Below are positions 18,806-61,834 of a stretch of DNA of 64,000 nucleotides, in pieces. The translations under genes and the position numbers were made by a program. The notes beneath the pieces are model-generated. The model did no database searches. It saw only the letters and a list, made by a program, of their open reading frames with translations, and was not told where the DNA came from. The DNA is from Lampris incognitus. Taxonomy: Eukaryota > Chordata > Actinopteri > Lampriformes > Lampridae. The stretch lies in the NCBI RefSeq assembly GCF_029633865.1, contig NC_079211.1:67243462-67307461 (forward strand). The letters run 5' to 3'. The first letter of the stretch is position 1; each line of letters opens with the position of its first letter.

Positions 18806-19475
<670 letters not shown>

Positions 19476-20294: not shown

Positions 20295-20953
20295 AACATA
20301 TTTCACATGTGCAGAGACTACAGGAATAGATGAGAGGAGGAGACAAGAGGAAGACATGAGAGGAAGAGACGCTGAAGACATGAGAGAAAGGCATGAGAGG
20401 AAGAGACGAGAGGAAGAGACAGGAAGAGATGAGAGGAAGAGACGAGAGGAAGACGAGAGGAAGAGACAGGTAGAGATAAGAGGATGAGACGAGAGGAAGA
20501 TATGAGACGGGGAGACGAGAGGAAGAGACGAGAGGAAGAGATGAGAGGGAGAGATGAGGGGATGAGACGAGAAGAAGAGATGAGAGGGAGAGATGAGAGG
20601 AAGAGATGAATGGAAGAGATGAGAGGGAGAGACGAGAGGAAGAGAAGGGAGGAAGAGACGAGAGGAAGAGATGAGAGGAAGAGACAGGAAGAGATGAGAG
20701 GATGAGACGAGAAGAAGAAATGAGAAGAAGAGATGGGAGGAAGATGAGAGGAAGAGATGAGAGGATGAGACGAGAAGAAGAAATGAGATGAAGAGACGAG
20801 AGGAAGATGAGAGGAAGAAATGAGAGGAAGAGATGAGGGGAGGAGACGAGAAGAAGAGACAAGAGGGAGAGACGAGAGGAAGAGACGAGAGGAAGAGATG
20901 AATGGAAGACGAGAGGAAGAGACGAGAGGAAGAGAAGAGAGGAGACGAAAGCA

Positions 20954-23883
20954 AGACGAGAGGAAGAGACAAGAGGAGGAGATGAGAGGGGGAGACGAGA
21001 AGAAGAGATGAGAGGAAGAGACGAGAGGGATACGAGAGGAAGTGACGAGAGGAAGCGATGAGGGGGAGACGAGAGGAAGAGATGAGAGGGTGAGACGAGA
21101 AGAAGTGATGAGAGGAAGAGACGAGAGGAAGAGATGAGAGGGAGATACGACAGGAAGACATGAGAGGCAGATATGAGGGGAAGAGACGTCAGGAAGAGAG
21201 GAGAGGAAGAGATGAGAGGGGGAGACGAGAGGAAGAGACAAGAGGAAGAGATGGGAGAGAGACGAGAGGAAGTGATGAGGGGGAGACGAGAGGAAGAGAT
21301 GAGAGGGTGAGACGAGAAGAAGAAATGAGAGGAAGAGACGAGAGGAAGAGATGAGAGTGGGAGATTAGGGGGAGACGAGAGGAAGAGATGGGAAGATGAG
21401 ACGAGAAGAAGAGACAAGAGGGAGAGACGAGAGGAAGAGACGAGAGGAAGAGACGAGAGGAAGAGACGAGAACAAGAGATGAGAGCAAGACGAGAGTAAG
21501 ATTTTAGAGGCGGTAACGAGAGCAAGAGAAGAGATGAAGAGACAAGAGGAAGAAATGAGGGGGAGACGAGAGGAAGAGACGAGAGGGTGAGACTAGAAGA
21601 AGAGATGAGAGGAAGAGACGAGAGTAAGAAGTGAGAGGAAGAGACGAGAGGAAGAGATTCAAGAGGAAGAGATGAGGGGAGATGAGAGGAAGAGAAGAGA
21701 GGAGACGAGAGCAAGACGAGAGGAAGAGACAAGAGGAAGAGATGAGAGGGGGAGACGAGAAGAAGAGATGAGAGGAATAGACGAGAGGGATACGAGAGGA
21801 AGTGACGAGAGGAACCGATGAGGGGGAGACGAGAGGAAGAGATGAGAGGGTGAGACGAGAAGAAGTGATGAGAGGAAGAGACGAGAGGAAGAGATGAGAG
21901 GGAGATACGACAGGAAGAGACGAGAGGCAGAGATGAGGGGAAGAGACATCAGGTAGAGACGAGAGGAAGAGATGAGAGGGGGAGACGAGAGGAAGAGACG
22001 AGAGGAAGAGATGAGAGAGAGACGAGAAGAAGAAATGAGAGGAAGAGACGAGAGGAAGAGATGAGAGTGGGAGATTAGGGGGATACGAGAGGAAGAGATG
22101 GGAGGATGAGACGAGAAGAAGAGACGAGAGGAAGAGATGAGGGTGAGACGGGAGGAAGAAATGAGAGAAAGAGATGAGGGGAGACGAGAGGAAGAGATGA
22201 GAGGAAGAGACGAGAAGAAGAGACGAGAGGAAGAGACGAGAGGAAGAGGTGACAGGAAGAGATGAGAAGGAGGGACGACAGGAAGAGACGAGAGGAAGAG
22301 ATGAGGGGAGATGAGAGGAAGAGACGATGGGGAGACGAGAGGAAGAGATGAGAGGAAGAGACGAGAGGAAGAGGTGAGAGGAAGAGATGAGAGGTAGAGA
22401 CAACAGGGAGAGACGAGAGGAAGAGACAAGAGGAGGAGATGAGAGGGGGAGACGAGAAGAAGAGATGAGAGGAAGAGACGAGAGGGATACGAGAGGAAGT
22501 GACGAGAGGAAGCGATGAGGGGGAGACGAGAGGAAGAGATGAGAGGGTGAGACGAGAAGAAGTGATGAGAGGAAGAGACGAGAGGAAGAGATGAGAGGGA
22601 GATACGACAGGAAGACATGAGAGGCAGATATGAGGGGAAGAGACGTCAGGAAGAGAGGAGAGGAAGAGATGAGAGGGGGAGACGAGAGGAAGAGACAAGA
22701 GGAAGAGATGGGAGAGAGACGAGAGGAAGTGATGAGGGGGAGACGAGAGGAAGAGATGAGAGGGTGAGACGAGAAGAAGAAATGAGAGGAAGAGACGAGA
22801 GGAAGAGATGAGAGTGGGAGATTAGGGGGAGACGAGAGGAAGAGATGGGAAGATGAGACGAGAAGAAGAGACAAGAGGGAGAGACGAGAGGAAGAGACGA
22901 GAGGAAGAGACGAGAGGAAGAGACGAGAACAAGAGATGAGAGCAAGACGAGAGTAAGATTTTAGAGGCGGTAACGAGAGCAAGAGAAGAGATGAAGAGAC
23001 AAGAGGAAGAAATGAGGGGGAGACGAGAGGAAGAGACGAGAGGGTGAGACTAGAAGAAGAGATGAGAGGAAGAGACGAGAGTAAGAAGTGAGAGGAAGAG
23101 ACGAGAGGAAGAGATTCAAGAGGAAGAGATGAGGGGAGATGAGAGGAAGAGAAGAGAGGAGACGAGAGCAAGACGAGAGGAAGAGACAAGAGGAAGAGAT
23201 GAGAGGGGGAGACGAGAAGAAGAGATGAGAGGAATAGACGAGAGGGATACGAGAGGAAGTGACGAGAGGAACCGATGAGGGGGAGACGAGAGGAAGAGAT
23301 GAGAGGGTGAGACGAGAAGAAGTGATGAGAGGAAGAGACGAGAGGAAGAGATGAGAGGGAGATACGACAGGAAGAGACGAGAGGCAGAGATGAGGGGAAG
23401 AGACATCAGGTAGAGACGAGAGGAAGAGATGAGAGGGGGAGACGAGAGGAAGAGACGAGAGGAAGAGATGAGAGAGAGACGAGAAGAAGAAATGAGAGGA
23501 AGAGACGAGAGGAAGAGATGAGAGTGGGAGATTAGGGGGATACGAGAGGAAGAGATGGGAGGATGAGACGAGAAGAAGAGACGAGAGGAAGAGATGAGGG
23601 TGAGTCGGGAGGAAGAAATGAGAGAAAGAGATGAGGGGAGACGAGAGGAAGAGATGAGAGGAAGAGACGAGAAGAAGAGACGAGAGGAAGAGACGAGAGG
23701 AAGAGGTGACAGGAAGAGATGTGAAGGAGGGACGACAGGAAGAGACGAGAGGAAGAGATGAGGGGAGATGAGAGGAAGAGACGATGGGGAGACGAGAGGA
23801 AGAGATGAGAGGAAGAGACGAGAGGAAGAGGTGAGAGGAAGAGATGAGAGGTAGAGACAACAGGGAGAGACGAGAGGAAGAGA
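20954..23883. repeat. Tandem pair of a 1457-bp block in the 13-bp array
   Basis: The block at 20954-22410 is repeated at 22411-23867, with about 16 bp more of identity. Landmarks keep an offset of exactly 1457: gacgagaggaagagacaag at 20955 and 22412; the cgacaggaagacatgagagg variant near 21150 and 22607; the gattttagaggcggtaacg marker near 21505 and 22962; gagacatcaggtagagac near 21950 and 23407. Only a few substitutions are seen, such as gatgagaagg against gatgtgaagg near 22270 and 23727. The copies diverge at 22427 against 23884. Confidence 0.85.
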
Positions 23884-25044
23884 TGAGGAGAAGATACAAG
23901 AGGAAAAGACGTTAGGAAGAAACGAGAACAAGAGACGAGAGCAAGAGATGAAAGGGGGAGACGTGAGGGAGAGACGAGAGGAAGAGATGAGGGGGAGACG
24001 AGAGGAAGAGGCGAGAGGAAGAGATGAGGTGGAGACGAGAGGAAGAGATGAGGGGGAGACGAGAGGAAGAGGCGAGAGGAAGAGATGAGGTGGAGACGAG
24101 AGGAAGAGATGAGAACAAGAGATGAGAGCAAGACAAGAGGAAGAGATGAGAGGGGGAGACGAGAGCAAGAGACGAGAGGAAGAGACGAGAGGGGGAGACG
24201 TGAGGGAGAGATGAGAGGAAGAGATGAGGGGGAGAAGAGAGGAAGAGATGAGAGGAGAGATGAGGGGGAGATGAGAGGAAGAGATGAAAGGGTGAGACGA
24301 GAAGAAGAGATGAGAGGAAGAGAGGGGAGGAAGAGATGAGAGGGTGAGATGACAGGAAGAGACGAGAGGAAGAGATGAGAGGGGGAGACGTGAGGGAGAG
24401 ACGAGAGGAAGAGATGAGAGGAAGAGATGAAGTGGTGAGACGAGAAGAAGAGATGAGAGGAAGAGACGAGAGGGAGAGTTGAGAGGAGGAGATGAGAGGG
24501 AGAGACGACAGGAAGAGATGAGAGGGGGAGACGAGAGGAATAGACGAGAACAAGAGATGAGAGCAAGACGAGAGGAAGAGATGAGAGGGGGAGACGAGAG
24601 CAAGAGACGAGAGGACGAGATGAGTGGAAGAGACGAGAGGAAGAGACGAGAGGAAGAGATGAGAGGGGGAGACGAGTAGGAGAGATGAGAGGAAGAGACG
24701 AGAGTAAGAAGTGAGAGGAAGAGACGAGAGGAAGAGATTCAAGAGGAAGAGATGAGGGGAGATGAGAGGAAGAGAAGAGAGGAGACGAGAGCAAGACGAG
24801 AGGAAGAGACAAGAGGAAGAGATGAGAGGGGGAGACGAGAAGAAGAGATGAGAGGAATAGACGAGAGGGATACGAGAGGAAGTGACGAGAGGAACCGATG
24901 AGGGGGAGACGAGAGGAAGAGATGAGAGGGTGAGACGAGAAGAAGTGATGAGAGGAAGAGACGAGAGGAAGAGATGAGAGGGAGATACGACAGGAAGAGA
25001 CGAGAGGCAGAGATGAGGGGAAGAGACATCAGGTAGAGACGAGA

Positions 25045-28000
25045 GGAAGAGATGAGAGGGGGAGACGAGAGGAAGAGACGAGAGGAAGAGATGAGAGAGA
25101 GACGAGAAGAAGAAATGAGAGGAAGAGACGAGAGGAAGAGATGAGAGTGGGAGATTAGGGGGATACGAGAGGAAGAGATGGGAGGATGAGACGAGAAGAA
25201 GAGACGAGAGGAAGAGATGAGGGTGAGACGGGAGGAAGAAATGAGAGAAAGAGATGAGGGGAGACGAGAGGAAGAGATGAGAGGAAGAGACGAGAAGAAG
25301 AGACGAGAGGAAGAGACGAGAGGAAGATGTGACAGGAAAAGATGAGAAGGAGGGACGACAGGAAGAGACGAGAGGAAGAGATGAGGGGAGATGAGAGGAA
25401 GAGACGATGGGGAGACGAGAGGAAGAGATGAGAGGAAGAGACGAGAGGAAGAGGTGAGAGGAAGAGACAACAGGGAGAGACGAGAGGAAGAGATGAGGAG
25501 AAGATACAAGAGGAAAAGACGTTAGGAAGAAACGAGAACAAGAGACGAGAGCAAGAGATGAAAGGGGGAGACGTGAGGGAGAGACGAGAGGAAGAGATGA
25601 GGGGGAGACGAGAGGAAGAGGCGAGAGGAAGAGATGAGGTGGAGACGAGAGGAAGAGATGAGGGGGAGACGAGAGGAAGAGGCGAGAGGAAGAGATGAGG
25701 TGGAGACGAGAGGAAGAGATGAGAGGAAGAGACGAGAACAAGAGATGAGAGCAAGACGAGAGGAAGAGACGAGAGGAAGAGATGAGAGGGGGAGACGAGA
25801 GGAAGAGACGAGAACAAGAGATGAGAGCAAGACAAGAGGAAGAGATGAGAGGGGGAGACGAGAGCAAGAGACGAGAGGAAGAGACGAGAGGGGGAGACGT
25901 GAGGGAGAGATGAGAGGAAGAGATGAGGGGGAGACGAGAGGAAGAGATGAGAGGAGAGATGAGGGGGAGATGAGAGGAAGAGATGAAAGGGTGAGACGAG
26001 AAGAAGAGATGAGAGGAAGAGAGGGGAGGAAGAGATGAGAGGGTGAGATGACAGGAAGAGACGAGAGGAAGAGATGAGAGGGGGAGACGTGAGGGAGAGA
26101 CGAGAGGAAGAGATGAGAGGAAGAGATGAAGTGGTGAGACGAGAAGAAGAGATGAGAGGAAGAGACGAGAGGGAGAGTTGAGAGGAGGAGATGAGAGGGA
26201 GATACGACAGGAAGAGACGAGAGGCAGAGATGAGGGGAAGAGACATCAGGAAGAGACGAGAGGAAGAGATGAGAGGGGGAGACGAGAGGAAGTGATGAGG
26301 GGGAGACGAGAGGAAGATTTGAGAGGCGGTAACGAGAGCAAGAGAAGAGATGAAGAGACAAGAGGAAGATATGAGAGGGGGTGACGAGAGGAAGAGACGA
26401 GCTGAAGAGATTTGTGGGAGATGGGAGGAAGAAATGAGGGGGAGACGAGAGGGAGAGACGAGAGGGTGAGACTAGAAGAAGAGATGAGAGGAAGAGACGA
26501 GTGGAAGAGATGAGAGGGAGATGAGAGGAAGAGACGAGAGGAAGAGATGAGGGGAGACGAGAGGAAGAGAGGAGAGGAAGAGATGAGAACAAGAGATGAG
26601 AGCAAGACGAGAGGAGGAGATGAGAGGGAGAGACGATAGGAAGAGACGAGAGGAAGAGACGAGAGGAAGAGACGAGAACAAGAGATGAGAGCAAGACGAG
26701 AGTAAGATTTTAGAGGCGGTAACGAGAGCAAGAGAAGAGATGAAGAGACAAGAGGAAGAAATGAGGGGGAGACGAGAGGAAGAGACGAGAGGGTGAGACT
26801 AGAAGAAGAGATGAGAGGAAGAGACGAGAGTAAGAAGTGAGAGGAAGAGACGAGAGGAAGAGATTCAAGAGGAAGAGATGAGGGGAGATGAGAGGAAGAG
26901 AAGAGAGGAGACGAGAGCAAGACGAGAGGAAGAGACAAGAGGAAGAGATGAGAGGGGGAGACGAGAAGAAGAGATGAGAGGAATAGACGAGAGGGATACG
27001 AGAGGAAGTGACGAGAGGAACCGATGAGGGGGAGACGAGAGGAAGACATGACAGGGTGAGACGAGAAGAAGTGATGAGAGGAAGAGACGAGAGGAAGAGA
27101 TGAGAGGGAGATACGACAGGAAGAGACGAGAGGCAGAGATGAGGGGAAGAGACATCAGGAAGAGACGAGAGGAAGAGATGAGAGGGGAGACGAGAGGAAG
27201 TGATGAGGGGGAGACGAGAGGAAGATTTGAGAGGCGGTAACGAGAGCAAGAGAAGAGATGAAGAGACAAGAGGAAGAGATGAGAGGGGGTGACGAGAGGA
27301 AGAGACGAGCTGAAGAGATTTGTGGGAGATGGGAGGAAGAAATGAGGGGGAGACGAGAGGGAGAGACGAGAGGGTGAGACTAGAAGAAGAGATGAGAGGA
27401 AGAGACGAGTGGAAGAGATGAGAGGGAGATGAGAGGAAGAGACGAGAGGAAGAGATGAGGGGAGACGAGAGGAAGAGAGGAGAGGAAGAGATGAGAACAA
27501 GAGATGAGAGCAAGACGAGAGGAGGAGATGAGAGGGAGAGACGACAGGAAGAGACGAGAGGAAGAGACGAGAGGAAGAGACGAGAACAAGAGATGAGAGC
27601 AAGACGAGAGTAAGATTTGAGAGAGGGTAACGAGAGCAAGAGAAGAGATGAAGAGACAAGAGGAAGAAATGAGGGGGAGACGAGAGGAAGAGACGAGAGG
27701 GTGAGACTAGAAGAAGAGATGAGAGGAAGAGACGAGTGGAAGCGATGAGAGGGAGATGAGAGGAAGAGACGAGAGGAAGAGATGAGGGGAGACGAGAGGA
27801 AGAGACGAGAGGAAGAGATAAGGGGGAGACGGGGGGAAGAGTTGATAGGAAGAGACGAGAAGAAGAGATGAGTGGAAGAGACGAGAAGAAGAGATGAGGG
27901 GGAGATGAGAGGAAGAGATGAAAGGGTGAGACAAGAAGAAGAGATGAGAGGAAGAGACGAGAGGAAGAGTTGAGAGGAGGAGATGAGAGGCTGAGACGAC

Positions 28001-31000
28001 AGGAAGCGTCGAGAGGAAGAGATGAGAGGGGGAGACGTGAGGGAAAGACAAGAGGAAGAGACGAGAGGAAGAGATGAGAGGGGGAGATGTGAGGGAGAGA
28101 CGAGATGAAGAGATGAGGGGGAGATGAGAGGAAGAGATGAGAGGAAGAGATGAGGGGGAGACGAGAGGAAGAGATGAAAGGGTGAGACGAGAAGAAGAGA
28201 TGAGTGGAAGAGACGAGTGGAAGAGTTGAGAGGAGGAGATGAGAGGGAGAGACGACAGGAAGAGACGAGAGGAAAATACGAGAACAAGAGATGAGAGCAA
28301 GACGAGAGGAAGATTTGAGAGACGGTAACGAGAGCAAGAGAAGAGATGAAGAGACAAGAGGAAGAGATGAGAAGGGGTGACGAGAGGAAGAGACGAGCTG
28401 AAGAGATTAGTGGGAGATGGGATGAAGAAATGAGGGGGAGACGAGAGGAAGAGACGACAGGAAGAGACGAGAGGAAGAGATGAGAGGGGGAGACGAGAGG
28501 AAGAGACGAGAGGAAGAGACGAGAACAAGAGATGAGAGCAAGACGAGAGGAAGAGATGAGAGGGGGAGACGACAGGAAGAGACGAGAGGAAGAGATGAGA
28601 GGGGGAGACGAGAGGAAGAGATGAGAGGAAGAGATGAGAAAAAGAGAAGAGAGGAAGAGACGAGAGGAAGAGACGAGTGGAAGAGACGAGAACAAGAGAT
28701 GAGAGCAAGACGAGAGGAAGAGATGAGAGGGGAAGACGAGAGCAAGAGATGAGAGGAAGAGAAGAGAGGAAGAGATGAGAGGGCGAGACGAGAGCAAGAG
28801 AAGAGAGCAAGAGACGAGAGGAAGAGACGAAAGGAAGGGATGAGAGTGAGACGAGAGGAAGAAATGAGAGGGTGAGACGAGAAGAAGAGATGAGAGGATG
28901 AGACGAGAAGAAGAGATGAGAGGAAGAGATGAGAGGAAGAGTTGAGAGGAGGAGATGAGAGGGAGAGACGACAGGAAGAGACGAGAGGAAGAGACGAGAG
29001 GGGGAGATGAGAGCAAGAGACTAGAGGAAGAGACGAGAGGAAGAGATGAGACGGGGAGACGAGGGGAAGAGACGAGAGTGGGAGATTAGGGGGATACGAG
29101 AGGAAGAGATGGGAGGATGAGACGAGAAGAAGAGACGAGAGGAAGAGATGAGGGTGAGACGGGAGGAAGAAATGAGAGAAAGAGATGAGGGGAGACGAGA
29201 GGAAGAGATGAGAGGAAGAGACGAGAAGAAGAGACGAGAGGAAGAGACGAGAGGAAGAGGTGACAGGAAGAGATGAGAAGGAGGGACGACAGGAAGAGAC
29301 GAGAGGAAGAGATGAGGGGAGATGAGAGGAAGAGACGATGGGGAGACGAGAGGAAGAGATGAGAGGAAGAGACGAGAGGAAGAGGTGAGAGGAAGAGATG
29401 AGAGGTAGAGACAACAGGGAGAGACGAGAGGAAGAGATGAGGAGAAGATACAAGAGGAAAAGACGTTAGGAAGAAACGAGAACAAGAGACGAGAGCAAGA
29501 GATGAAAGGGGGAGACGTGAGGGAGAGACGAGAGGAAGAGATGAGGGGGAGACGAGAGGAAGAGGCGAGAGGAAGAGATGAGGTGGAGACGAGAGGAAGA
29601 GATGAGGGGGAGACGAGAGGAAGAGGCGAGAGGAAGAGATGAGGTGGAGACGAGAGGAAGAGATGAGAGGAAGAGACGAGAACAAGAGATGAGAGCAAGA
29701 CGAGAGGAAGAGACGAGAGGAAGAGATGAGAGGGGGAGACGAGAGGAAGAGACGAGAACAAGAGATGAGAGCAAGACAAGAGGAAGAGATGAGAGGGGGA
29801 GACGAGAGCAAGAGACGAGAGGAAGAGACGAGAGGGAGAGATGAGAGGAAGAGATGAGGGGGAGAAGAGAGGAAGAGATGAGAGGAGAGATGAGGGGGAG
29901 ATGAGAGGAAGAGATGAAAGGGTGAGACGAGAAGAAGAGATGAGAGGAAGAGAGGGGAGGAAGAGATGAGAGGGTGAGATGACAGGAAGAGACGAGAGGA
30001 AGAGATGAGAGGGGGAGATGTGAGGGAGAGACGAGAGGAAGAGATGAGAGGAAGAGATGAAGTGGTGAGACGAGAAGAAGAGATGAGAGGAAGAGACGAG
30101 AGGGAGAGTTGAGAGGAGGAGATGAGAGGGAGAGACGACAGGAAGAGATGAGAGGGGGAGACGAGAGGAATAGACGAGAACAAGAGATGAGAGCAAGACG
30201 AGAGGAAGAGATGAGAGGGGGAGACGAGAGCAAGAGACGAGAGGACGAGATGAGTGGAAGAGACGAGAGGAAGAGACGAGAGGAAGAGATGAGAGGGGGA
30301 GACGAGAGGAAGAGACGAGAGGAAGAGATGAGAGAGAGACGAGAAGAAGAAATGAGAGGAAGAGACGAGAGGAAGAGATGAGAGTGGGAGATTAGGGGGA
30401 TACGAGAGGAAGAGATGGGAGGATGAGACGAGAAGAAGAGACGAGAGGAAGAGATGAGGGTGAGACGGGAGGAAGAAATGAGAGAAAGAGATGAGGGGAG
30501 ACGAGAGGAAGAGATGAGAGGAAGAGACGAGAAGAAGAGACGAGAGGAAGAGACGAGAGGAAGAGGTGACAGGAAGAGATGAGAAGGAGGGACGACAGGA
30601 AGAGACGAGAGGAAGAGATGAGGGGAGATGAGAGGAAGAGACGATGGGGAGACGAGAGGAAGAGATGAGAGGAAGAGACGAGAGGAAGAGGTGAGAGGAA
30701 GAGACAACAGGGAGAGACGAGAGGAAGAGATGAGGAGAAGATACAAGAGGAAAAGACGTTAGGAAGAAACGAGAACAAGAGACGAGAGCAAGAGATGAAA
30801 GGGGGAGACGTGAGGGAGAGACGAGAGGAAGAGATGAGGGGGAGACGAGAGGAAGAGGCGAGAGGAAGAGATGAGGTGGAGACGAGAGGAAGAGATGAGG
30901 GGGAGACGAGAGGAAGAGGCGAGAGGAAGAGATGAGGTGGAGACGAGAGGAAGAGATGAGAGGAAGAGACGAGAACAAGAGATGAGAGCAAGACGAGAGG

Positions 31001-34000
31001 AAGAGACGAGAGGAAGAGATGAGAGGGGGAGACGAGAGGAAGAGACGAGAACAAGAGATGAGAGCAAGACAAGAGGAAGAGATGAGAGGGGGAGACGAGA
31101 GCAAGAGACGAGAGGAAGAGACGAGAGGGGGAGACGTGAGGGAGAGATGAGAGGAAGAGATGAGGGGGAGACGAGAGGAAGAGATGAGAGGAGAGATGAG
31201 GGGGAGATGAGAGGAAGAGATGAAAGGGTGAGACGAGAAGAAGAGATGAGAGGAAGAGAGGGGAGGAAGAGATGAGAGGGTGAGATGACAGGAAGAGACG
31301 AGAGGAAGCGATGAGAGGGGGAGACGTGAGGGAGAGACGAGAGGAAGAGATGAGAGGAAGAGATGAAGTGGTGAGACGAGAAGAAGAGATGAGAGGAAGA
31401 GACGAGAGGGAGAGTTGAGAGGAGGAGATGAGAGGGAGATACGACAGGAAGAGACGAGAGGCAGAGATGAGGGGAAGAGACATCAGGAAGAGACGAGAGG
31501 AAGAGATGAGAGGGGGAGACGAGAGGAAGTGATGAGGGGGAGACGAGAGGAAGATTTGAGAGGCGGTAACGAGAGCAAGAGAAGAGATGAAGAGACAAGA
31601 GGAAGAGATGAGAGGGGGTGACGAGAGGAAGAGACGAGCTGAAGAGATTTGTGGGAGATGGGAGGAAGAAATGAGGGGGAGACGAGAGGGAGAGACGAGA
31701 GGGTGAGATGAGAGGAAGAGACGAGTGGAAGAGATGAGAGGGAGATGAGAGGAAGAGACGAGAGGAAGAGATGAGGGGAGACGAGAGGAAGAGAGGAGAG
31801 GAAGAGATGAGAGTAAGAAGTGAGAGGAAGAGACGAGAGGAAGAGATTCAAGAGGAAGAGATGAGGGGAGATGAGAGGAAGAGAAGAGAGGAGACGAGAG
31901 CAAGACGAGAGGAAGAGACAAGAGGAAGAGATGAGAGGGGGAGACGAGAAGAAGAGATGAGAGGAATAGACGAGAGGGATACGAGAGGAAGTGACGAGAG
32001 GAACCGATGAGGGGGAGACGAGAGGAAGACATGACAGGGTGAGACGAGAAGAAGTGATGAGAGGAAGAGACGAGAGGAAGAGATGAGAGGGAGATACGAC
32101 AGGAAGAGACGAGAGGCAGAGATGAGGGGAAGAGACATCAGGAAGAGACGAGAGGAAGAGATGAGAGGGGAGACGAGAGGAAGTGATGAGGGGGAGACGA
32201 GAGGAAGATTTGAGAGGCGGTAACGAGAGCAAGAGAAGAGATGAAGAGACAAGAGGAAGAGATGAGAGGGGGTGACGAGAGGAAGAGACGAGCTGAAGAG
32301 ATTTGTGGGAGATGGGAGGAAGAAATGAGGGGGAGACGAGAGGGAGAGACGAGAGGGTGAGACTAGAAGAAGAGATGAGAGGAAGAGACGAGTGGAAGAG
32401 ATGAGAGGGAGATGAGAGGAAGAGACGAGAGGAAGAGATGAGGGGAGACGAGAGGAAGAGAGGAGAGGAAGAGATGAGAACAAGAGATGAGAGCAAGACG
32501 AGAGGAGGAGATGAGAGGGAGAGACGACAGGAAGAGACGAGAGGAAGAGACGAGAGGAAGAGACGAGAACAAGAGATGAGAGCAAGACGAGAGTAAGATT
32601 TGAGAGAGGGTAACGAGAGCAAGAGAAGAGATGAAGAGACAAGAGGAAGAAATGAGGGGGAGACGAGAGGAAGAGACGAGAGGGTGAGACTAGAAGAAGA
32701 GATGAGAGGAAGAGACGAGTGGAAGCGATGAGAGGGAGATGAGAGGAAGAGACGAGAGGAAGAGATGAGGGGAGTCGAGAGGAAGAGACGAGAGGAAGAG
32801 ATAAGGGGGAGACGGGGGGAAGAGTTGATAGGAAGAGACGAGAAGAAGAGATGAGTGGAAGAGACGAGAAGAAGAGATGAGGGGGAGATGAGAGGAAGAG
32901 ATGAAAGGGTGAGACAAGAAGAAGAGATGAGAGGAAGAGACGAGAGGAAGAGTTGAGAGGAGGAGATGAGAGGCTGAGACGACAGGAAGCGTCGAGAGGA
33001 AGAGATGAGAGGGGGAGACGTGAGGGAAAGACAAGAGGAAGAGACGAGAGGAAGAGATGAGAGGGGGAGATGTGAGGGAGAGACGAGATGAAGAGATGAG
33101 GGGGAGATGAGAGGAAGAGATGAGAGGAAGAGATGAGGGGGAGACGAGAGGAAGAGATGAAAGGGTGAGACGAGAAGAAGAGATGAGTGGAAGAGACGAG
33201 TGGAAGAGTTGAGAGGAGGAGATGAGAGGGAGAGACGACAGGAAGAGACGAGAGGAAAATACGAGAACAAGAGATGAGAGCAAGACGAGAGGAAGATTTG
33301 AGAGACGGTAACGAGAGCAAGAGAAGAGATGAAGAGACAAGAGGAAGAGATGAGAAGGGGTGACGAGAGGAAGAGACGAGCTGAAGAGATTAGTGGGAGA
33401 TGGGATGAAGAAATGAGGGGGAGACGAGAGGAAGAGACGACAGGAAGAGACGAGAGGAAGAGATGAGAGGGGGAGACGAGAGGAAGAGACGAGAGGAAGA
33501 GACGAGAACAAGAGATGAGAGCAAGACGAGAGGAAGAGATGAGAGGGGGAGACGACAGGAAGAGACGAGAGGAAGAGATGAGAGGGGGAGACGAGAGGAA
33601 GAGATGAGAGGAAGAGATGAGAAAAAGAGAAGAGAGGAAGAGACGAGAGGAAGAGACGAGTGGAAGAGACGAGAACAAGAGATGAGAGCAAGACGAGAGG
33701 AAGAGATGAGAGGGGAAGACGAGAGCAAGAGATGAGAGGAAGAGAAGAGAGGAAGAGATGAGAGGGCGAGACGAGAGCAAGAGAAGAGAGCAAGAGACGA
33801 GAGGAAGAGACGAAAGGAAGGGATGAGAGTGAGACGAGAGGAAGAAATGAGAGGGTGAGACGAGAAGAAGAGATGAGAGGATGAGACGAGAAGAAGAGAT
33901 GAGAGGAAGAGATGAGAGGAAGAGTTGAGAGGAGGAGATGAGAGGGAGAGACGACAGGAAGAGACGAGAGGAAGAGACGAGAGGGGGAGATGAGAGCAAG

Positions 34001-34030
34001 AGACTAGAGGAAGAGACGAGAGGAAGAGAT
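25045..34030. repeat. Tandem pair of a block of about 5.2 kb in the 13-bp array
   Basis: 25045-26470 matches 30282-31707 at offset 5237 (for example gacaggaa at 25331 and 30568). After a net loss of 254 bp in the second copy, 26828 to about 29045 matches 31811 to about 34028 at offset 4983 (for example gagagtaagaagtgagagg at 26828 and 31811). Inside the first copy a further stretch from about 29070 repeats the sequence from about 25125 at offset 3944. This points to successive duplication and deletion of large pieces. Edges are good to tens of bases. Confidence 0.75.
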
Positions 34031-34289
34031 GAGACGGGGAGACGAGGGGAAGAGACGAGAGGAAGAGACGAGAACAAGAGATGAGAGCAAGACGAGAGGA
34101 AGATTTGAGAGGCGGTAATGAGTGCAAGAGAAGAGATGAAGAGACAAGAGGAAGAGATGAGAGGGGGTGACGAGAGGAAGAGACGAGCTGAAGAGATTAG
34201 TGGGAGATGGGAGGAAGAAATGAGGGGGAGACGAGAGGAAGAGACGAGAGGGTGAGACTAGAAGAAGAGATGAGAGGAAGAGACGAGTG

Positions 34290-42530: not shown

Positions 42531-42655
42531 GAGGAAGATTTGAGAGGCGGTAATGAGTGCAAGAGAAGAGATGAAGAGACAAGAGGAAGAGATGAGAGGG
42601 GGTGACGAGAGGAAGAGACGAGCTGAAGAGAGGGGAGGAAGAGATGAGAGGGTGA

Positions 42656-49893: not shown

Positions 49894-50029
49894 AAGAGAC
49901 GAGGAAGAGATGAGAGGGAGAGATGAGAGGAAGAGACGTGAGGAAGAGAAGAGAGGAAGAGATGAGAGGGGGACATGAAAGGAAGAGATGAGAGAGAGAC
50001 GAGAGGAAGAGATGAGAGGAAGAGACAAG

Positions 50030-53000
50030 AAAAGACGAGAGGAAGACACAGGAAGAGACGAGAGGAAGAGACAGGAAGAGATTAGAGGATGAGACGAGAA
50101 GAAGAAATGAGAAGAAGAGACGAGAGGAAGATGAGAGAAAGAAATGAGAGGAATAGATGAGGGGATGAGACGAGAAAAAGAGACGGGAGGAAGAGATGAA
50201 TGGAATAGATGAGAGGGAGAGATGAGAGGAAGAGGAGAGAGGACACGAGAGCAAGACGAGAGGAAGAGGCAAGAGGAAGAGATGAGAGGAAGAGACGAGA
50301 ACAAGAGATGAGAGCAAGACGAGAGGAAGAGATGAGAGGGGGACACAAGAGCAAGAGACGAGATGAAGAGACGAGAGGAAGAGATGAGGGGGAGACGAGA
50401 GGAAGAGACTCGAGGAAGAGATGAGAGGGAGAGATGAGAGGAAGAGACGTGAGGAAGAGAAGAGAGGAAGAGATGAGAGGGGGAGACGAAAGGAAGAGAT
50501 GAGAGAGAGACGAGAGGAAGAGATGAGAGGAAGAGACAAGAGGAAGACGAGAGGAAGAGACAGGAAGAGATCAGAGGAAGAGACGAGAGGAAGAGACAGG
50601 AAGAGATTAGAGGATGAGACGAGAAGAAGAAATGAGAAGAAGAGACGAGAGGAAGATGAGAGAAAGAAATGAGAGGAAGAGATGAGGGGATGAGACGAGA
50701 AGAAGAGACGGGAGGAAGAGATGAATGGAAGAGATGAGAGGGAGAGATGAGAGGAAGAGGAGAGAGGACAAGAGAGCAAGTCGAGAGGAAGAGACAAGAG
50801 GAAGAGATGAGAGGAAGTGACGAGAGGAAGAGACGAGAACAAGAGATGAGAGCAAGACGAGAGGAAGAGATGAGAGGGGGGTAACGAGGGCAAGAGACGA
50901 GATGAAGAGACAAGAGGAAGTGATGAGAGGGGGAGATTAGGGGGAGACAAGAGGAAAAGATGAGAGGCTGAGACGAGAAGAAGAGACGAGAGGAAGAGAC
51001 GAGACCAAGAGATGAGAGCAAGATGAGAGGAAGAAATGAGGGGGAGACGGGAGGAAGAAATGAGGGGGAGACGAGAGGAAGAGACGAGAGGGAGAGACTA
51101 GAAGAAGAGATGAGAGGAAGAGACGAGTGGAAGAGATGAGAGGGAGACGAGAGGAAGAGATGAGGGGAGATGAGAGGAAGAGACGAGAGGAAGAGATGAG
51201 GGGGAGACGGGGGGAAGAGATGAGAGGAAGAGACGAGATGAGAGGAAGAGACGAGAAGAAGAGACGAGAGGAAGAGGTGACAGGAGGAGATGAGAAGGAG
51301 GGACGACAGGAAGAGACGAGAGGAAGAGACAAGAAAAAGAGATGAGAGCAAGACGAGAGGAAGAGATGAGAGGGGGACACAAGAGCAAGAGACGATATGA
51401 AGAGACGAGAGGAAGAGATGAGGGGAGATGAGAGGAAGAGACGATGGGGAGACGAGAGGAAGACATGAGAGGAAGAGACGAGAGGAAGAGGTGAATGGAA
51501 GAGATGAGAGGGAGAGACAGCGGGGAGAGACGAGAGGAAGAGATGAGGGGAAGAGACGTGAGGAAAAAACTTTAGGAAGATACGAGAACAAGAGACGAGA
51601 GCAAGACGAGAGGAAGAGACAAGAGGAAGAGATGAGGGGAAGAGACGAGAGGAAGAGATGAGGGGGAGACGAGAGGAAGAGGCGAGAGGAAGAGATGAGG
51701 GGGAGACGAGAGGAAGAGGCGAGAGGAAGAGATGAGGGGGAAACGAGAGGAAGGGATGAGAGGAAGAGACGAGAACAAGAGATGAGAGCAAGACGAGAGG
51801 AAGAGACAAGAGGAAGAGATGAGACGGGGAGACGACAGGAAGAGATGAGAGGAAGCGATGAGAGGGGGAGTCGAGAGCAAGAGACGAGAGGAAGAGACGA
51901 GTGGAAGAGATGGGAGGGAGACGAGAGGAAGAGATGAGGGGAGACGAGAGGAAGAGACGAGAGGAAGAGATGAGGGGGAGACGGGGGGAAGAGATGAGAG
52001 GAAGAGACGAGATGAGAGGAAGAGACGAGAAGAAGAGACGAGAGGAAGAGGTGACAGGGAGAGATGAGCAGGAGGGACGACAGGACGAGACGAGACGAAG
52101 AGATGATGGGAAGAGACAAGAACAAGAGTTGAGAGGAAGAGACGAGAGGAAGAGACGACAGGAAGAGACGAGAACAAGCGATGAGAGCAAGACGAGAGGA
52201 AGAGATGAGAGGGGGAGACGAGAGCAAGAGACGAGAGGAAGAGATGAGAGGGGGAGACGAGAGGGGGAGACGAAAGCAAGAGACGAGAGGAAGGGATGAG
52301 AGGGGGAGACGAGAGGATGAGACGAGAGGAAGAGACGAGAAGAAGAGATGAGAGGAAGAGACGAGATGAGAGGAAGAGACGAGAAGAAGAGACGAGAGGA
52401 AGAGGTGACAGGAAGAGATGAGAAGGAGGGACGACAGGATGAGACGAGGCGAAGAGATGAGGGCAAGAGACAAGAACAAGAGTTGAGAGCAAGACGAGAG
52501 GAAGAGATGAGAGGGGGACACAAGAGCAAGAGACGATATGAAGAGACGAGAGGAAGAGATGAGGGGAGACGAGAGGAAGAGACGATGGGGAGAAGAGAGG
52601 AAGAGTCGAGAGGAAGAGACGAGAGGAAGAGGTGAGAGGAAGAGATGAGAGGGAGAGATGAGAGGGAGAGATGACAGGAAGAGACGAGAGGAAGTGATGA
52701 GGGGAAGAGACGTGAGGAAACGACGTGAGGAAGAGACGAGAGGAAGAGACGAGAACAAGAGATCAGAGCAAGATTAGAGGAAGAGATGAGGGGGGAGACG
52801 AGAGGAAGAGACGAGAGGAGGAATCGAGAGGACGAGATGAGCGGAAGTGACGAGAGGAAGAGATGAGAGGAAGAGACGAGAGGACGAGATTAGAGGATGA
52901 GACGAGCAGAGATGAGAGGAAGAGACGAGAAGAAGACTTGAGAGGAAGAGAAGAGAGGGAGAGACGACAGGGAGAGATGAGAGCGGGAGACGAGAGGAAG

Positions 53001-56000
53001 AGATGAGAGGAAGAGACGAGAAGAAGAGATGAGATGAAGAGACGAGAAGAAGAGTTGAGAAGAAGAGACGAGAGGAAGAGACGAGAACAAGAGATGAGAG
53101 CAAGACGAGAGGAAGAGATGAGGGGGGAGACGAGAGCAAGAGACGAGAGGAAGAGACGAGAGGAAGAGACGAGAGGAAGAGATGAGAGGGGGAGACGAGA
53201 GCAAGAGAGGAGAGCAAGAGAGGAGAGGAAGAGACGAGAGGAAGGGACGAGAGGGGGAGATGAGAGGAAGAGACGAGAACAAGAGACGAGAGGAAGATGA
53301 GAGGAAGAAATGAGAAGAAGAGATGAGGGGATGAGACGAGAAGAAGAGACGAGAGGGAGAGACGACAGGAAGAGATGAATGGAAGAGATGAGAGGGAGAG
53401 ACGTGAGGAAGAGGAGAGAGGAGACGAGAGCTAGACGAGAGGAAGAGACAAGAGGAAGAGATGAGAGGAAGAGACGAGAGGAAGAGATGAGAGGGGGGTA
53501 ACGAGAGCAAGAGACGAGATGAAGAGACAAGAGGAAGAGATGAGAGGGGGAGACGAGATGAAGAGACAAGAGCAAGAGACGAGAGGAAGACTAGAGGAAG
53601 AGATTAGGGGGGGAGACGAGAGCAAGAGACGAGAGGAGGAATCGAGAGGACGAGATGAGCGGAAGTGACGAGAGGAAGAGATGAGAGGAAGAGACGAGAG
53701 GAAGAGACGAGAGGAAGAGACGAGAGGAAAAAACTATAGGAAGATACGAGAACAAGAGACGAGAGCAAGACGAGAGGAAAAGACAAGAGGAAGAGATGAG
53801 GGGGAGACGAGAGGAAGAGATGAGGGGGAGACGAGAGGGAGAAGCGAGAGGAAGAGATGAGGGGGAGACGAGAGGAAGAGGCGAGAGGAAGAGATGAGGG
53901 GGAGACGAGAGGAAGAGATGAGAGGAAGAGACGAGAACAAGAAATGAGAGCAAGACGAGTGGAAGAGACAAGAGGAAGAGATGAGAGGGGGAGACGACAG
54001 GAAGAGATGAGAGGAAGAGACGAGAGCAAGAGACGAGAGGAAGAGAGGAGAGGAAGAGGTGAGTGGAAGAGATGAGAGGGAGAGACGACTGGAAGAGACG
54101 CGAGGAAGTGATGAGGGGAAGAGACGTGAGGAAAAGACGTGAGGAAGAGACAAGAGGAAGAGACGAGAACAAGAGATCACAGCAAGACTAGAGGAAGAGA
54201 TGAGGGGGGGAGACGAGAGGAAGATACGAGAGGTGGAATCGAGAGGACGAGATGAGCGGAAGTGACGAGAGGAAGAGATGAGAGGAAGAGACCACAGGAA
54301 GAGATTAGAGGATGAGACGAGAAGAGATGAGAGGAAGAGACGAGAAGAAGAGTTGAGAGGAAGAGAAGAGAGGGAGAGACGACAGGGAGAGATGAGAGCG
54401 GGAGACGAGAGGTAGAGATGAGAGGAAGAGACGAGAAGAAGAGATGAGAAGAAGAGACGAGAGGAAGAGACGAGAGGAAGAGACGAGAACAAGAGATGAG
54501 AGCAAGACGGGAGGAAGAGATGAGAGGGGGAGATGAGGGGGAGACGAGAGGAAGAGATGAGGGGGAGACGAGAGGGAGAAGCGAGAGGAAGAGATGAGGG
54601 GGAGACGAGAGGAAGAGGCGAGAGGAAGAGATGAGGGGGAGACGAGAGGAAGAGATGAGAGGGGGAGATGAGAGGGGGAGACGAGATGAAGAGACAAGAG
54701 GAAGAGATGAGAGGGGGAGATTAGGGGGAGACGAGAGGAAGAGATGAGAGGATGAGACGAGAAGAAGAGACGAGAGGAAGAGACGAGAACAAGAGATGAG
54801 AGCAAGACGAGAGGAAGAAATGAGGGGGAGACGGGAGGAAGAAATGAGGGGGAGACGAGAGGAAGAGACGAGTGGAAGAGATGGGAGGGAGACGAGAGGA
54901 AGAGATGAGGGGAGATGAGAGGAAGAGACGAGAGGAAGAGATGAGGGGGAGACGGGGGGAAGAGATGAGAGGAAGAGACGAGATGAGAGGAAGAGACGAG
55001 AAGAAGAGACGAGAGGAAGAGGTGACAGGAAGAGATGAGCAGGAGGGACGAGAGGAAGATGTGAGAGGAAGAGATGAGAGGGAGAGACGAGAGGAAGAGA
55101 CGAGAACAAGAGATCAGAGCAAGACTAGAGGAAGAGATGAGGGGGGGAGACGAGAGGAAGAGACGAGAGGAGGAATCGAGAGGACGAGATGAGCGGAAGT
55201 GACGAGAGGAAGAGATGAGAGGAAGAGACCAGAGGAAGAGATTAGAGGATGAGACGAGAAGAGATGAGAGGAAGAGACGAGAAGAAGAGTTGAGAGGAAG
55301 AGAAGAGAGGGAGAGACGACAGGGAGAGATGAGAGCGGGAGACGAGAGGAAGATATGAGAGGAAGAGACGAGAGGAAGAGACGAGAGGAAGAGACGAGAA
55401 CAAGAGATGAGAGCAAGACGAGAGGAAGAGATGAGAGGGGGAGACGAGAGCAAGAGACGAGAGGAAGAGACGAGAGGTAGGGATGAGAGGGGGAGACGAG
55501 AGCAAGAGAGGAGAGGAAGAGACGAGAGGAAGGGATGAGAGGGGGAGACGAGAGGATGAGACGAGAGGAAGAGATGAGAGGGGGAGACGAGAGGAAAATA
55601 CGAGAGGAAGAGATGAGAGGGAGACGAGAGCAAGAGAAGAGAGGGTGAAACGAGAAGAAGAGATGAGAGCAAGACTAGAGGAAGAGATTAGGGGGGGAGA
55701 CGAGAGCAAGAGACGAGAGGAGGAATCGAGAGGACGAGATGAGCGGAAGTGACGAGAGGAAGAGATGAGAGGAAGAGACGAGAGGAAGAGACGAGAGCAA
55801 GAGACGAGAGGAAGAGATGAGAGGGGGAGAAGAGAGGGAGAGACGACAGGAAGAGATGAGAGTGGGAGACGAGAGCAAGAGACGAGAGGAAGACTAGAGG
55901 AAGAGATTAGGGGGGGGAGACGAGAGCAAGAGACGAGAGGAGGAATCGAGAGGACGAGATGAGCGGAAGTGACGAGAGGAAGAGATGAGAGGAAGAGACG

Positions 56001-59000
56001 AGAGGAAGAAGTGAGAGGAAGAGACGAGAGGAAGAGAGAAAAGAGGAAGAGACGAGAGGGAGAGGCAGCAGGGAGAGACGAGAGGAAGAGATGAGGGGAA
56101 GAGACGTGAGGAAAAAACTATAGGAAGATACGAGAACAAGAGACGAGAGCAAGACGAGAGGAAAAGACAAGAGGAAGAGATGAGGGGGAGACGAGAGGAA
56201 GAGATGAGGGGGAGACGAGAGGGAGAAGCGAGAGGAAGAGATGAGGGGGAGACGAGAGGAAGAGGCGAGAGGAAGAGATGAGGGGGAGACAAGAGGAAGA
56301 GATGAGAGGAAGAGACGAGAACAAGAAATGAGAGCAAGACGAAAGGAAGAGACAAGAGGAAGAGATGAGAGGAGGAATCGAGAGGACGAGATGAGCGGAA
56401 GTGACGAGAGGAAGAGATGAGAGGAAGAGACGAGAGCAAGAGACGAGAGGAAGAGATGAGAGGGGGAGAAGAGAGGGAGAGATGACAGGAAGAGATGAGA
56501 GCGGGAGACGAGAGCAAGAGACGAGAGGAAGACTAGAGGAAGAGATTAGGGGGGGAGACGAGAGCAAGAGACGAGAGGAGTAATCGAGAGGACGAGATGA
56601 GCGGAAGTGACGAGAGGAAGAGATGAGAGGAAGAGACGAGAGGAAGAGACGAGAGGAAGAGAGACAAGAGGAAGAGACGAGAGGGAGAGACAGCAGGGAG
56701 AGACGAGAGGAAGAGATGAGGGGAAGAGACGTGAGGAAAAAACTATAGGAAGATACGAGAACAAGAGACGAGAGCAAGACGAGAGGAAAAGACAAGAGGA
56801 AGAGATGAGGGGGAGACGAGAGGAAGAGATGAGGGGGAGACGAGAGGGAGAAGCGAGAGGAAGAGATGAGGGGGAGACGAGAGGAAGAGGCGAGAGGAAG
56901 AGATGAGGGGGAGACGAGAGGAAGAGATGAGAGGAAGAGACGAGAACAAGAAATGAGAGCAAGACGAGTGGAAGAGACAAGAGGAAGAGATGAGAGGGGG
57001 AGACGAGAGGAAGAGAGGAGAGGAAGAGGTGAGTGGAAGAGATGAGAGGGAGAGACGACTGGAAGAGACGCGAGGAAGTGATGAGGGGAAGAGACGTGAG
57101 GAAAAGACGTGAGGAAGAGACAAGAGGAAGAGACGAGAACAAGAGATCACAGCAAGACTAGAGGAAGAGATGAGGGGGGGAGACGAGAGGAAGATACGAG
57201 AGGTGGAATCGAGAGGACGAGATGAGCGGAAGTGACGAGAGGAAGAGATTAGAGGATGAGACGAGAAGAGATGAGAGGAAGAGACGAGAAGAAGAGTTGA
57301 GAGGAAGAGAAGAGAGGGAGAGACAACAGGGAGAGATGAGAGCGGGAGACGAGAGGTAGAGATGAGAGGAAGAGACGAGAAGAAGAGATGAGAAGAAGAG
57401 ACGAGAGGAAGAGACGAGAGGAAGAGACGAGAACAAGAGATGAGAGCAAGACGAGAGGAAGAGATGAGAGGGGGAGACGAGAGCAAGAGACGAGAGGAAG
57501 AGACGAGAGGTAGGGATGAGAGGGGGAGACGAGAGCAAGAGAGGAGAGCAAGAGAGGAGAGGAAGAGACGAGAGGAAGGGATGAGAGGGGGAGACGAGAG
57601 GATGAGACGAGAGGAAGAGATGAGAGTGAGATGAGAGGAAGAGATGAGAGGGTGAGACGAGAAGAAGAGATGAGAGGAAGAGACGAGAGGCAGAGGTGAG
57701 AGGAAGAGACGTGAGGAAAAGACGTTAGGAAGAGACGAGAGGAAGAGAAGAGAACAAGAGAGGGGGCAAGACTAGAGGTAGAGATGAGAGGGGGAGACGA
57801 GAGCAAGAGATGAGAAGGGGTGATGAGAGGAAGAGACGCGAGGAAGAGATTAGGGGGAGACGAGAGGAAGAGATGAGAGGATGAGACGAGAAGTGACGAG
57901 AGGAAGAGACGAGAAGAAGAGATGAGAGGAAGAGACGAGAGCAAGAGACGAGAGGAAGAGATGAGAGGGAGACGAGAGCAAGAGAAGAGAGGGTGAGACG
58001 AGAAGAAGAGATGAGAGGAAGAGACGAGAGGGAGAGACGACAGGAAGAGACGTGATGAAACGACGTGAGGAAGACACGAGAGGAAGAGTCGAGAACAAGA
58101 GACGAGAACAAGAGATGAGAGGAAGAGACGAGCGGAAGAGATGAGAGGAAGAGACGAGAGGAAGGGATGAGAGGAAGAGACGAGAGGAAGAGGTGAGAGG
58201 AAGAGATGAGAGGGAGAGACGACAGGAAGAGACGAGAACAAGAGATGAGAGCAAGACTAGAGGAAGAGATTAGGGGGGGAGACGAGAGCAAGAGACGAGA
58301 GGAGGAATCGAGAGGACGAGATGAGCGGAAGCGACGAGAGGAAGAGATGAGAGGAAGAGACGAGAGGAAGAGACGAGAGCAAGAGACGAGAGGAAGAGAT
58401 GAGAGGGGGAGAAGAGAGGGAGAGACGACAGGAAGAGATGAGTGCGGGAGACGAGAGCAAGAGATGAGAGGAAGACTAGAGGAAGAGATTAGGGGGGGAG
58501 ACGAGAGCAAGAGACTAGAGGAGGAATCGAGAGGACGAGATGAGCGGAAGTGACGAGAGGAAGAGATGAGAGGAAGAGAAGAGAGGAAGAGACGAGAGGA
58601 AGAGACAGCAGGGAGAGACGAGAGGAAGAGATGAGGCGAAGAGACGTGAGGAAAAAACTTTAGGAAGATACGAGAACAAGAGACGAGAGCAAGACGAGAG
58701 GAAAAGACAAGAGGAAGAGATGAGGGGGAGACAAGAGGAAGAGACGAGAGGGAGAGGTGAGAGGAAGAGATGAGGGGGAGACGAGAGGAAGAGGCGAGAG
58801 GAAGAGATGAGGGGGAGACGAGAGGAAGAGATGAGAGGAAGAGACGAGAACAAGAAATGAGAGCAAGACGAGAGGAAGAGACAAGAGGAAGAGATGAGAG
58901 GGGGAGACGACAGGAAGAGATGAGAGGAAGAGACGAGAACAAGAGACGAGAGGAAGAGACGAGAGGAAGAGGTGAGTGGAAGAGATGAGAGGGAGAGACG

Positions 59001-60936
59001 ACAGGAAGAGACGAGAGGAAGTGATGAGGGGAAGAGACGTGAGGAAAAGACGTGAGGAAGAGACGAGAGGAAGAGACGAGAACAAGAGATCACAGCAAGA
59101 CTAGAGGAAGAGATGAGGGGGGGAGACGAGAGGAAGATACGAGAGGAGGAATCGAGAGGACGAGATGAGCGGAAGTGACGAGAGGAAGAGATGAGAGGAA
59201 GAGACCAGAGGAAGAGATTAGAGGATGAGACGAGAAGAGATGAGAGGAAGAGACGAGAAGAAGAGTTGAGAGGAAGAGAAGAGAGGGAGAGACGACAGGG
59301 AGAGATGAGAGCAGGAGACGAGAGGAAGAGATGAGAGGAAGAGACGAGAAGAAGAGATGAGAAGAAGAGACGAGAGGAAGAGACGAGAAGAAGAGATGAG
59401 AGCAAGACGAGAGGAAGAGATGAGAGGGGGAGACGAGAGCAAGAGACGAGAGGAAGAGACGAGAGGAAGGGATGAGAGGGGGAGACGAGAGCAAGAGAGG
59501 AGAGCAAGAGACGAGAGGGTGAGACGAGAAGAAGAGATGAGAGGAAGAGACGAGAGGCAGAGGTGAGAGGAAGAGACGTGAGGAAAAGACGTGAGGAAGA
59601 GACGAGAGGAAGAGACGAGAACAAGAGAGGGGGCAAGACTAGAGGTAGAGATGAGAGGGGGAGACGAGAGCAAGAGACGAGAGGATGAATCGAGAGGACG
59701 AGATGAGAAGGGGTGATGAGAGGAAGAGACGCGAGGAAGAGATTAGGGGGAGACGAGAGGAAGAGATGAGAGGATGAGACGAGAAGTGACGACACGAAGA
59801 GACGAGAAAAAGAGATGAGAGCAAGACGAGAGGAAGAGATGAGAGGGGCTAACGAGAGCAAGAGACGAGATGAAGAGACAAGAGGAAGAGATGAGAGGGG
59901 GTGACGAGAGGAAGAGATGAGAGGATGAGACGAGAAGTGACGAGAGGAAGAGAAGAGAAGAAGAGATGAGAGGAAGAGATGAGAGGAAGAGACGACAGGA
60001 AGAGACGAGAACAAGCGATGAGAGCAAGACGAGAGGAAGAGATGAGAGGGGGAGACGAGAGCAAGAGACGAGAGGAAGAGATGAGAGGGGGAGACGAGAG
60101 CAAGAGACGAGAGGAAGAGACGAGAGGAAGGGATGAGAGGGGGAGACGAGAGGATGAGACGAGAGGAAGAGATGAGAGGGGGAGACGAGAGGAAGAGACG
60201 AGAGGAAGAGATGCGAGGGAGACGAGAGCAAGAGATGAGAGGGTGAGACGAGAAGAAGAGATGAGAGGAAGAGATGAGAGGGAGAGACGACAGGAAGAGA
60301 CGTAAGGAAAAGACGTGAGGAAGACACGAGAGGAAGAGTCGTGAGGAAGAGACGAGAACAAGAGACGAGAGGAAGAGACGAGCGGAAGAGATGAGAGGGG
60401 GAGACGAGAGCTAGAGAGGAGAGCAAGAGACGAGAGGAAGAGACGAGAGGAAGAGGTGAGAGGAAGAGATGAGAGGGAGAGACGACAGGAAGAGACGAGA
60501 ACAAGAGATGAGAGCAAGACTAGAGCAAGAGACGAGGGGGGGAGACGAGAGCAAGAGACGAGAGGAGGAATCGAGAGGACGAGATGAGCGGAAGTGACGA
60601 AAGGAAGAGACGAGACGAAGAGAAGAGAGGGAGAGACGACAGGAAGAGATGAGAGCGGGAGACGAGAGCAAGAGACGAGAGGAAGAGATGAGTGGAAGAG
60701 ACGAGAGGAAGAGACGAGAGGAAGAAGTGAGAGGAAGAGACCAGAGGAAGAGAGACAAGAGGAAGAGATGAGAGGGGGATTTGAGATGAAGAGACGAGAG
60801 GGAGATACGAGATGAAGAGACGAGAGGGAGAGACGAGAGGGAGAGACAAGAGGAAGAGATCAGAGGGGGAAGCGAGATAAAGGGACGAGAGGAAGAGACG
60901 AGAGGGAGAGACGAGAGGAAGAGATGAGAGGAAGAG
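50030..60936. repeat. Right part of the 13-bp array with shorter shuffled blocks
   Basis: Blocks here are shorter and more mixed. A 525-bp offset links about 50071 and 50596 (acaggaagagattagaggat). The aactataggaagatacgaga variant near 53731 recurs near 56117 and 56741. The stretch after 53731 matches that after 56741 at offset 3009, falling to 2970, which is again a 39-bp step. A related copy lies near 58650-59085 (offset 4913 from about 54172). The words ggaggaatcgagaggacgag and gatgagcggaagtgacgag recur many times as a paired landmark. Order is less regular than in the blocks further left, which suggests an older or more rearranged part. Confidence 0.7.
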
Positions 60937-61560: not shown

Positions 61561-61741
61561 GTCGAATCACGAGGGCCGAATTTATTTGAAAAAGGAAACC
61601 CTATTAAAAAGAATATTCTTTGTGAAGAAATAGCAGTTAGTGAAATGACATGGCAGTGAGGCACATTTATGTTTTAAATAAAACTGATCAACTACTGACT
61701 TCTGAACAATGCTCCTTCCTGTGGCGTGAGCTGAAGGTCTG
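61561..61741. other. Spacer without recognisable feature
   Basis: About 180 bp of ordinary AT-rich sequence between the CpG island and the (ATCA)n tract. It includes an aataaa at 61677-61682. No gene or repeat was recognised. Confidence 0.5.

Positions 61742-61834
<93 letters not shown>

Follow-up and report, generated by a model that had tools for sequence, protein, structure and literature searches.

What a tandem array of 40.6 kb, almost entirely purine on one strand, represents and how it is tolerated where it lies is a question raised by a 64,000-nucleotide stretch of the Lampris incognitus genome (assembly GCF_029633865.1, contig NC_079211.1, positions 67,243,462 to 67,307,461 of the forward strand). 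This whole stretch is called the window here, and positions count from its first base. The array is a real, very large minisatellite of an already known kind. Our reading of the sequence, to which we give a probability of roughly 60%, is that it lies in the first intron of a minus-strand FNBP1/TOCA-1-type gene, where it would be a neutral expansion tolerated in its orientation. The product of such a gene is an F-BAR, actin-regulating membrane protein.

20313..60936, plus strand: 13-bp polypurine minisatellite, consensus AGAGA[C/T]GAGAGGA, about 3,190 units (Tandem Repeats Finder (TRF), alignment, composition)

TRF calls the array at 20313-60936 with a period of 13 and 3190.3 copies, and these head-to-tail units fall within the minisatellite size class of 10-100 bp per unit given in an excerpt of PMC5241972. 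The purine fraction of the plus strand is 0.883 over 40,624 bp (17,390 A, 18,494 G, 2,529 C and 2,211 T) and never drops below 0.77 in any 60-bp window, the array being free of inserts and breaks. Autocorrelation at lag 13 is 0.730, the top value among lags 1-2999, compared with a lag-13 identity of 0.401 in a control consisting of one first-order Markov sequence built from the array. 9-mers that occur at least 10 times account for 99.0% of the array bases. Alignment to the cyclic consensus resolves 3,191 units, including a terminal fragment, and 2,546 of them are exactly 13 bp long. There are 359 distinct unit types, the most frequent being AGAGACGAGAGGA (406), AGAGATGAGAGGA (200) and AGAGATGAGAGGG (192), and the unit core GAGA[C/T]GAGAGGA has no exact match on either strand in the rest of the window. 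These measurements confirm the 13-bp polypurine array, with its strand asymmetry, that an earlier note on this DNA had described as almost unbroken. That note had set the bounds at 20327..60936, of which the end is identical to ours and the start lies 14 bp inside the TRF start. Its estimate of about one pyrimidine per unit was too low, the count being about 1.5 (4,740 per 3,191 units). It was right that the purine runs are short, but its figure of about 12 nt in most units is too strong: 1,476 of the 4,422 runs are exactly 12 nt, the median is 9, and 95 runs exceed 12 nt, the longest reaching 27 nt.

The asymmetry gains a transcriptional meaning from a probable exon 366 bp beyond the right edge of the array, of which the earlier note made no mention.

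61303..61332, minus strand: probable first coding exon MSCSWGTELW, donor GTAAGA (first donor base 61302), FNBP1/FBP17-like N-terminus (sequence reading, PDB comparison)
61333..61380, minus strand: in-frame upstream extension from an earlier ATG, MQPPSRGGVGTRRGGS (sequence reading)
61000..61599, no strand assigned: CpG-rich stretch, CpG observed/expected 1.2-1.4 in three 200-bp bins, probable promoter and 5′ untranslated region (CpG count)
60937..61302, minus strand: probable part of intron 1 between exon and array, 366 bp (coordinates)

The minus strand reads ATG AGC TGC AGC TGG GGA ACG GAA CTG TGG, followed directly by GTAAGA, with 61303 as the last exon base. We take MSCSWGTELW to be the probable start of an FBP17/TOCA-1-type protein. 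In the PDB comparison, for which the query was a 53-residue FBP17 fragment and not the exon peptide, chain 2efl_A (Formin-binding protein 1, FBP17/FNBP1) is identical over 53/53 query residues, with MSWGTELWDQF starting from its residue 6. The candidate exon and FBP17 have SWGTELW in common, a seven-residue identity that ends exactly at the GTAAGA donor. Outside the two large arrays of the window, 52 candidate exons run from an ATG to a GTRAG (13 on the plus and 39 on the minus strand, 1,339 residues), the 465 plus-strand ones inside the arrays having been dropped. Under uniform residue frequencies, the expected number of occurrences of a given 7-mer is about 1e-6, and that of a match to any of 20,000 proteins is 0.02, a crude figure in which neither the pair of tryptophans nor the CpG context nor the position of the donor is yet taken into account. 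The assignment of the exon to an FNBP1-type gene is suggested, not proved, by this sequence, and we regard it as quite likely.

A number of observations weigh against the proposed exon, its intron or the role given to orientation. The candidate exon has two additional residues (CS) after MS relative to FBP17, and the sole other PDB match of the FBP17 fragment, CIP4 (2efk_A), aligns from query residue 9 and is without bearing on WGTELW. The exon peptide alone (10 residues, or 26 with the upstream ATG) has no phmmer match in PDB and no Pfam match; in our judgement, neither method can work with as few as seven informative residues, and this blank result speaks neither for nor against the exon. 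A literature text search for WGTELW or SWGTEL gave no match, and that FNBP1 genes already described have an exon end directly behind MSWGTELW is our assumption. Exact motifs of exon 2 and beyond (EKHT, HTQWG, VKER, YAKQLR, DQF[DE] and DQY[DE]) have 0 matches in the six frames of the window. Exon 2, DQFDNLEKHTQWG-like on the minus strand, would therefore lie beyond the window start, and intron 1 would consequently be longer than 61 kb, with tandem repeats making up about 90%. Furthermore, selection of the orientation cannot be read from a single array, since chance gives one in two, and even with the 59-bp satellite that would share the intron there are two arrays, too few to show such selection.

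1..14467, plus strand: 59-bp satellite, 244 copies, reaching the window start (TRF)

If the exon is right, intron 1 would be transcribed through the array as 40 kb of polypyrimidine RNA, starting 366 nt into the intron and nearly free of AG. The minus strand of the array contains 74 AG dinucleotides (1.8/kb, versus 263.4/kb on the plus strand), its longest AG-free stretch is 3,352 nt, and it has one Y10NYAG acceptor-like site. Over the whole 40.6 kb, this strand has 0 A[A/T]TAAA, 0 GTRAG and 0 AGGT. The plus strand carries 208 GTRAG and 323 YAG, and A[A/T]TAAA is absent from it as well. In the 59-bp satellite, A[A/T]TAAA occurs 276 times on the plus and 0 times on the minus strand, and between the two arrays there are 7 on the minus and 8 on the plus strand. 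Because AG is so rare and both GTRAG and A[A/T]TAAA are missing, the array RNA would offer few cryptic exons or transcript ends, from which tolerance would follow. Placement in the intron with the minus strand as sense is probably the orientation expected to disturb splicing least. We propose no advantage for the gene; the likely consequences would be extra time spent on transcription, as a cost, and a locus that varies in length. The open frames of the array minus strand, which reach 1,271 amino acids and overlap in several frames, were considered as a coding repeat and rejected as genes; they are long because stops are rare in this composition (45, 47 and 54 per minus frame, 569-626 per plus frame).

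Nearest-neighbour values give an estimated hybrid-minus-duplex energy for the array of +0.112 kcal/mol per bp with sense RNA and -0.259 with antisense RNA. By this calculation, the template would pair more weakly with the sense RNA than with its DNA partner strand, and long R-loops would not be expected. PTB-class proteins would presumably coat the array RNA along its length and silence splicing until intron 1 is removed, a predicted coating that earlier cases make plausible. The sense strand of the array contains 6,553 YUCUYY/YYUCUY hexamers, 3,932 of them non-overlapping. Ten base-shuffled controls have means of 4,666 and 1,880, respectively, and ten first-order Markov controls have means of 10,050 and 3,103. 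More hexamers in total and somewhat fewer non-overlapping ones in the Markov controls mean that the PTB motif density reflects composition, a further point against our reading, and selection of PTB motifs is not claimed, as composition accounts for the hexamer density. Among single motifs, UCUU occurs 2,467 times in the array sense strand versus a mean of 1,398 in 20 Markov sequences, and CUCUCU 120 times versus a mean of 2,056 in the same number.

The array presumably grew in two ways: a short GA-rich tract would have become an array by slippage, and blocks of up to a few kilobases would then have been duplicated, chiefly in the parts remote from the promoter, by unequal exchange or by repair-associated template switching. 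The kilobase duplications, which were missing from the earlier account of the array, emerged from block comparison.

20954..49900, plus strand: array segment with the ten largest block pairs (1.2-2.9 kb, 99.7-100% identity; block comparison)
52313..60936, plus strand: promoter-proximal array segment with few recent block copies (16%, 16% and 0% cover in the last three bins, the final bin being 624 bp; block cover)

Near-identical block pairs (at least 400 bp, at least 98% identity) number 42 and together cover 70.5% of the array. In successive 4-kb bins that start at 20313, these pairs cover 82, 100, 97, 98, 99, 97, 71, 40, 16 and 16%, with 0% in the last 624 bp, so recent copying has been scarcest in the array portion closest to the probable promoter. 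The longest exact repeats are 1,936 bp (34728 and 40151, offset 5,423), 1,317 bp (42654 and 43941, offset 1,287) and 1,286 bp (27793 and 32776); offsets of 5,423, 4,983 and 1,531 recur among the block pairs, and many other offsets are also present. Of the 52 variable sites within the 42 pairs, 22 are transitions and 30 are transversions. Some of these sites divide the copies 2:2 and lie close together, within about 200 bp, a pattern that would fit gene conversion or mosaic copying. The units, with CG in 1,540, TG in 1,211 and CA in 131 of 3,191, had resembled the product of strand-biased deamination, and strand-biased CpG decay was considered. It was dropped because only 7 of the 52 variable sites are CpG transitions (3 C/T, 4 A/G), small numbers in which the direction of change is not established. 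Given so few CpG transitions among recent block copies, the excess of TG more plausibly reflects amplification of an old unit variant. As a side observation, the excess of transversions over transitions at the variable sites includes 9 A/T and 7 G/T changes.

Against placement in a gene stands the reading of the array as an ordinary intergenic or heterochromatic minisatellite, beside which the exon-like stretch would be a chance occurrence or a dead first exon and transcription would be irrelevant. The short exon without a phmmer or Pfam match of its own, the exon 2 motifs absent from the window, and the second satellite and reverse transcriptase remains on the other side of the array would all suit it. 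It has more difficulty with an identity of seven residues that stops exactly at a GTAAGA donor within a CpG-rich stretch, for which even the crude chance of 0.02 for any of 20,000 proteins leaves donor position and CpG context uncounted, and we consider it unlikely. The array might also be an assembly artefact in which duplicated blocks have inflated a shorter locus, as the very long exact repeats of 1,936 and 1,317 bp and the recurrent offsets could suggest. Nine of the ten largest block pairs, however, differ at a few sites, the 42 pairs together contain 52 variable sites, the offsets are of many different sizes, and the right end, with few recent copies, still has about 8.6 kb of diverged units. 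These arguments from sequence do not replace long reads, and they make an artefact quite improbable.

A different role would fall to the array if triplex or other non-B DNA stalled polymerases and thereby drove its expansion. The purine content of 88% on one strand across 40 kb and purine stretches that reach 40 nt with one interruption are of the kind that this would call for, and the polypurine mirror tracts of PKD1 form triplexes, as passages of PMC9483843 report. In the array, however, perfect 10-nt mirror arms with a loop of at most 8 nt have 45 centres, and none is all-purine, compared with 170 centres, 110 of them all-purine, in one first-order Markov control from the array. Uninterrupted homopurine mirror repeats of the PKD1 H-DNA type, taken as all-purine arms of at least 10 nt with a loop of at most 8 nt, are thus absent from it. 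The longest all-purine mirror arm of the tandem consensus is 4 nt, and the longest pure purine run of the array is the 27 nt given above. The mirror match of the consensus is 9/13, and 73% of 924 arrangements of the same composition are no higher in their best cyclic match; the weak mirror symmetry of the array is not special and is typical of its composition. The lack of all-purine mirror symmetry, besides the interruptions, disfavours H-DNA. Triplexes from imperfect or non-mirror sequences are also described in the passages of PMC9483843, so a triplex in the array is made unlikely only, and a structure-driven array as a whole strikes us as having a slim chance. The idea in the earlier note that the array may sit just below a threshold for stable triplexes stands insofar as the pyrimidine interruptions do shorten the purine runs, and its triplex framing is weakened by the missing all-purine arms.

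Intronic polypyrimidine tracts and satellites have precedents, given here as excerpts of the respective papers present them. Human PKD1 intron 21 contains a tract of 2.5 kb, 97% pyrimidine, with 23 mirror repeats (PMC9483843). It resembles the array in being a long sense-strand polypyrimidine tract, within an intron that for the array is only probable; it differs in that the array is 40.6 kb, 88% and a regular 13-bp tandem without perfect all-purine mirror arms of at least 10 nt. For the neighbouring PKD1 intron 22, whose sense strand is C-rich, antisense transcription alone gave R-loops in vitro (PMC10873753). In Drosophila, the gigantic introns of the Y-loop genes kl-5 and ks-1 carry (AAGAC)n satellite, and the probe for RNA fluorescence in situ hybridization was (AAGAC)6 (PMC6508621), so the RNA detected would be pyrimidine-rich. 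Heph, a homologue of mammalian PTB, is found on Y-loops A and C and is needed to process kl-5 transcripts (PMC6508621). The likeness is a tandem satellite within introns, for the array a probable one, and RNA that would be pyrimidine-rich; the Y-loops, in contrast, are megabase-sized, Y-linked and part of a spermatocyte programme, whereas the array measures tens of kilobases in a gene that is only probable. PNCTR has 2,178 YUCUYY/YYUCUY hexamers, 565 of them non-overlapping, and shares with the array RNA a pyrimidine-rich repeat with thousands of such motifs (PMC6224606); it is an RNA polymerase I transcript of the ribosomal DNA spacer with PTBP1 binding shown, whereas the array RNA is a putative pre-mRNA intron with predicted binding. 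By extension, the unspliced intron or its lariat could act as a PNCTR-like depot of PTB made in cis, with about 3,900 non-overlapping hexamers per transcript, and array length could tune PTB availability or the splicing timing of this gene and vary among individuals; we regard this as a distinctly long shot. MSTN-2 and GH of Sparus aurata show repeat-number polymorphism in fish first introns (PMC3045353); in MSTN-2 a block of about 150 bp is present once or twice, compared with about 3,190 units over 40 kb in the array.

Topic searches gave no earlier report of the array among the matches listed, which is not proof that it is unpublished. A 26-mer of two consensus units had 0 exact matches among viral contigs or genome contigs, the window's own genome possibly being excluded, and an Rfam scan gave 0 matches at gathering score. 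In a literature search with five oligomers from the unit and the 59-bp satellite, GAGACGAGAGGA was matched in three papers and TCCTCTCGTCTC in seven, and the other three oligomers were not matched; the match in a fish marker paper is, in the part of PMC4850654 concerned, a primer of a CA-repeat locus. Its size, its orientation and its probable first-intron location make the array a useful test case. Should the exon prove correct, the transcribed repeat would be about sixteen times as long as the PKD1 intron 21 tract, and it would provide a natural test of the transcription and splicing of giant repeat introns in genes other than those of the fly Y-loops, and of whether the survival of an expansion within a gene depends on the orientation of the repeat.

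Two further elements lie between the 59-bp satellite and the array.

19871-20292: 25-bp tandem repeat, 17.6 copies, ending 20 bp before the array (TRF)
17520-18629, minus strand: reverse transcriptase remnant, Pfam RVT_1, E 1.4e-18 (Pfam scan)

The other three frames in the Pfam scan that detected the RVT_1 remnant had no match. Near this remnant is a perfect 130-bp TC run (19019-19148). On the far side of the array, TCAA is perfectly repeated 23 times, and a 32-bp tandem repeat comes next (61742-62129); both lie a short way upstream of the probable promoter.

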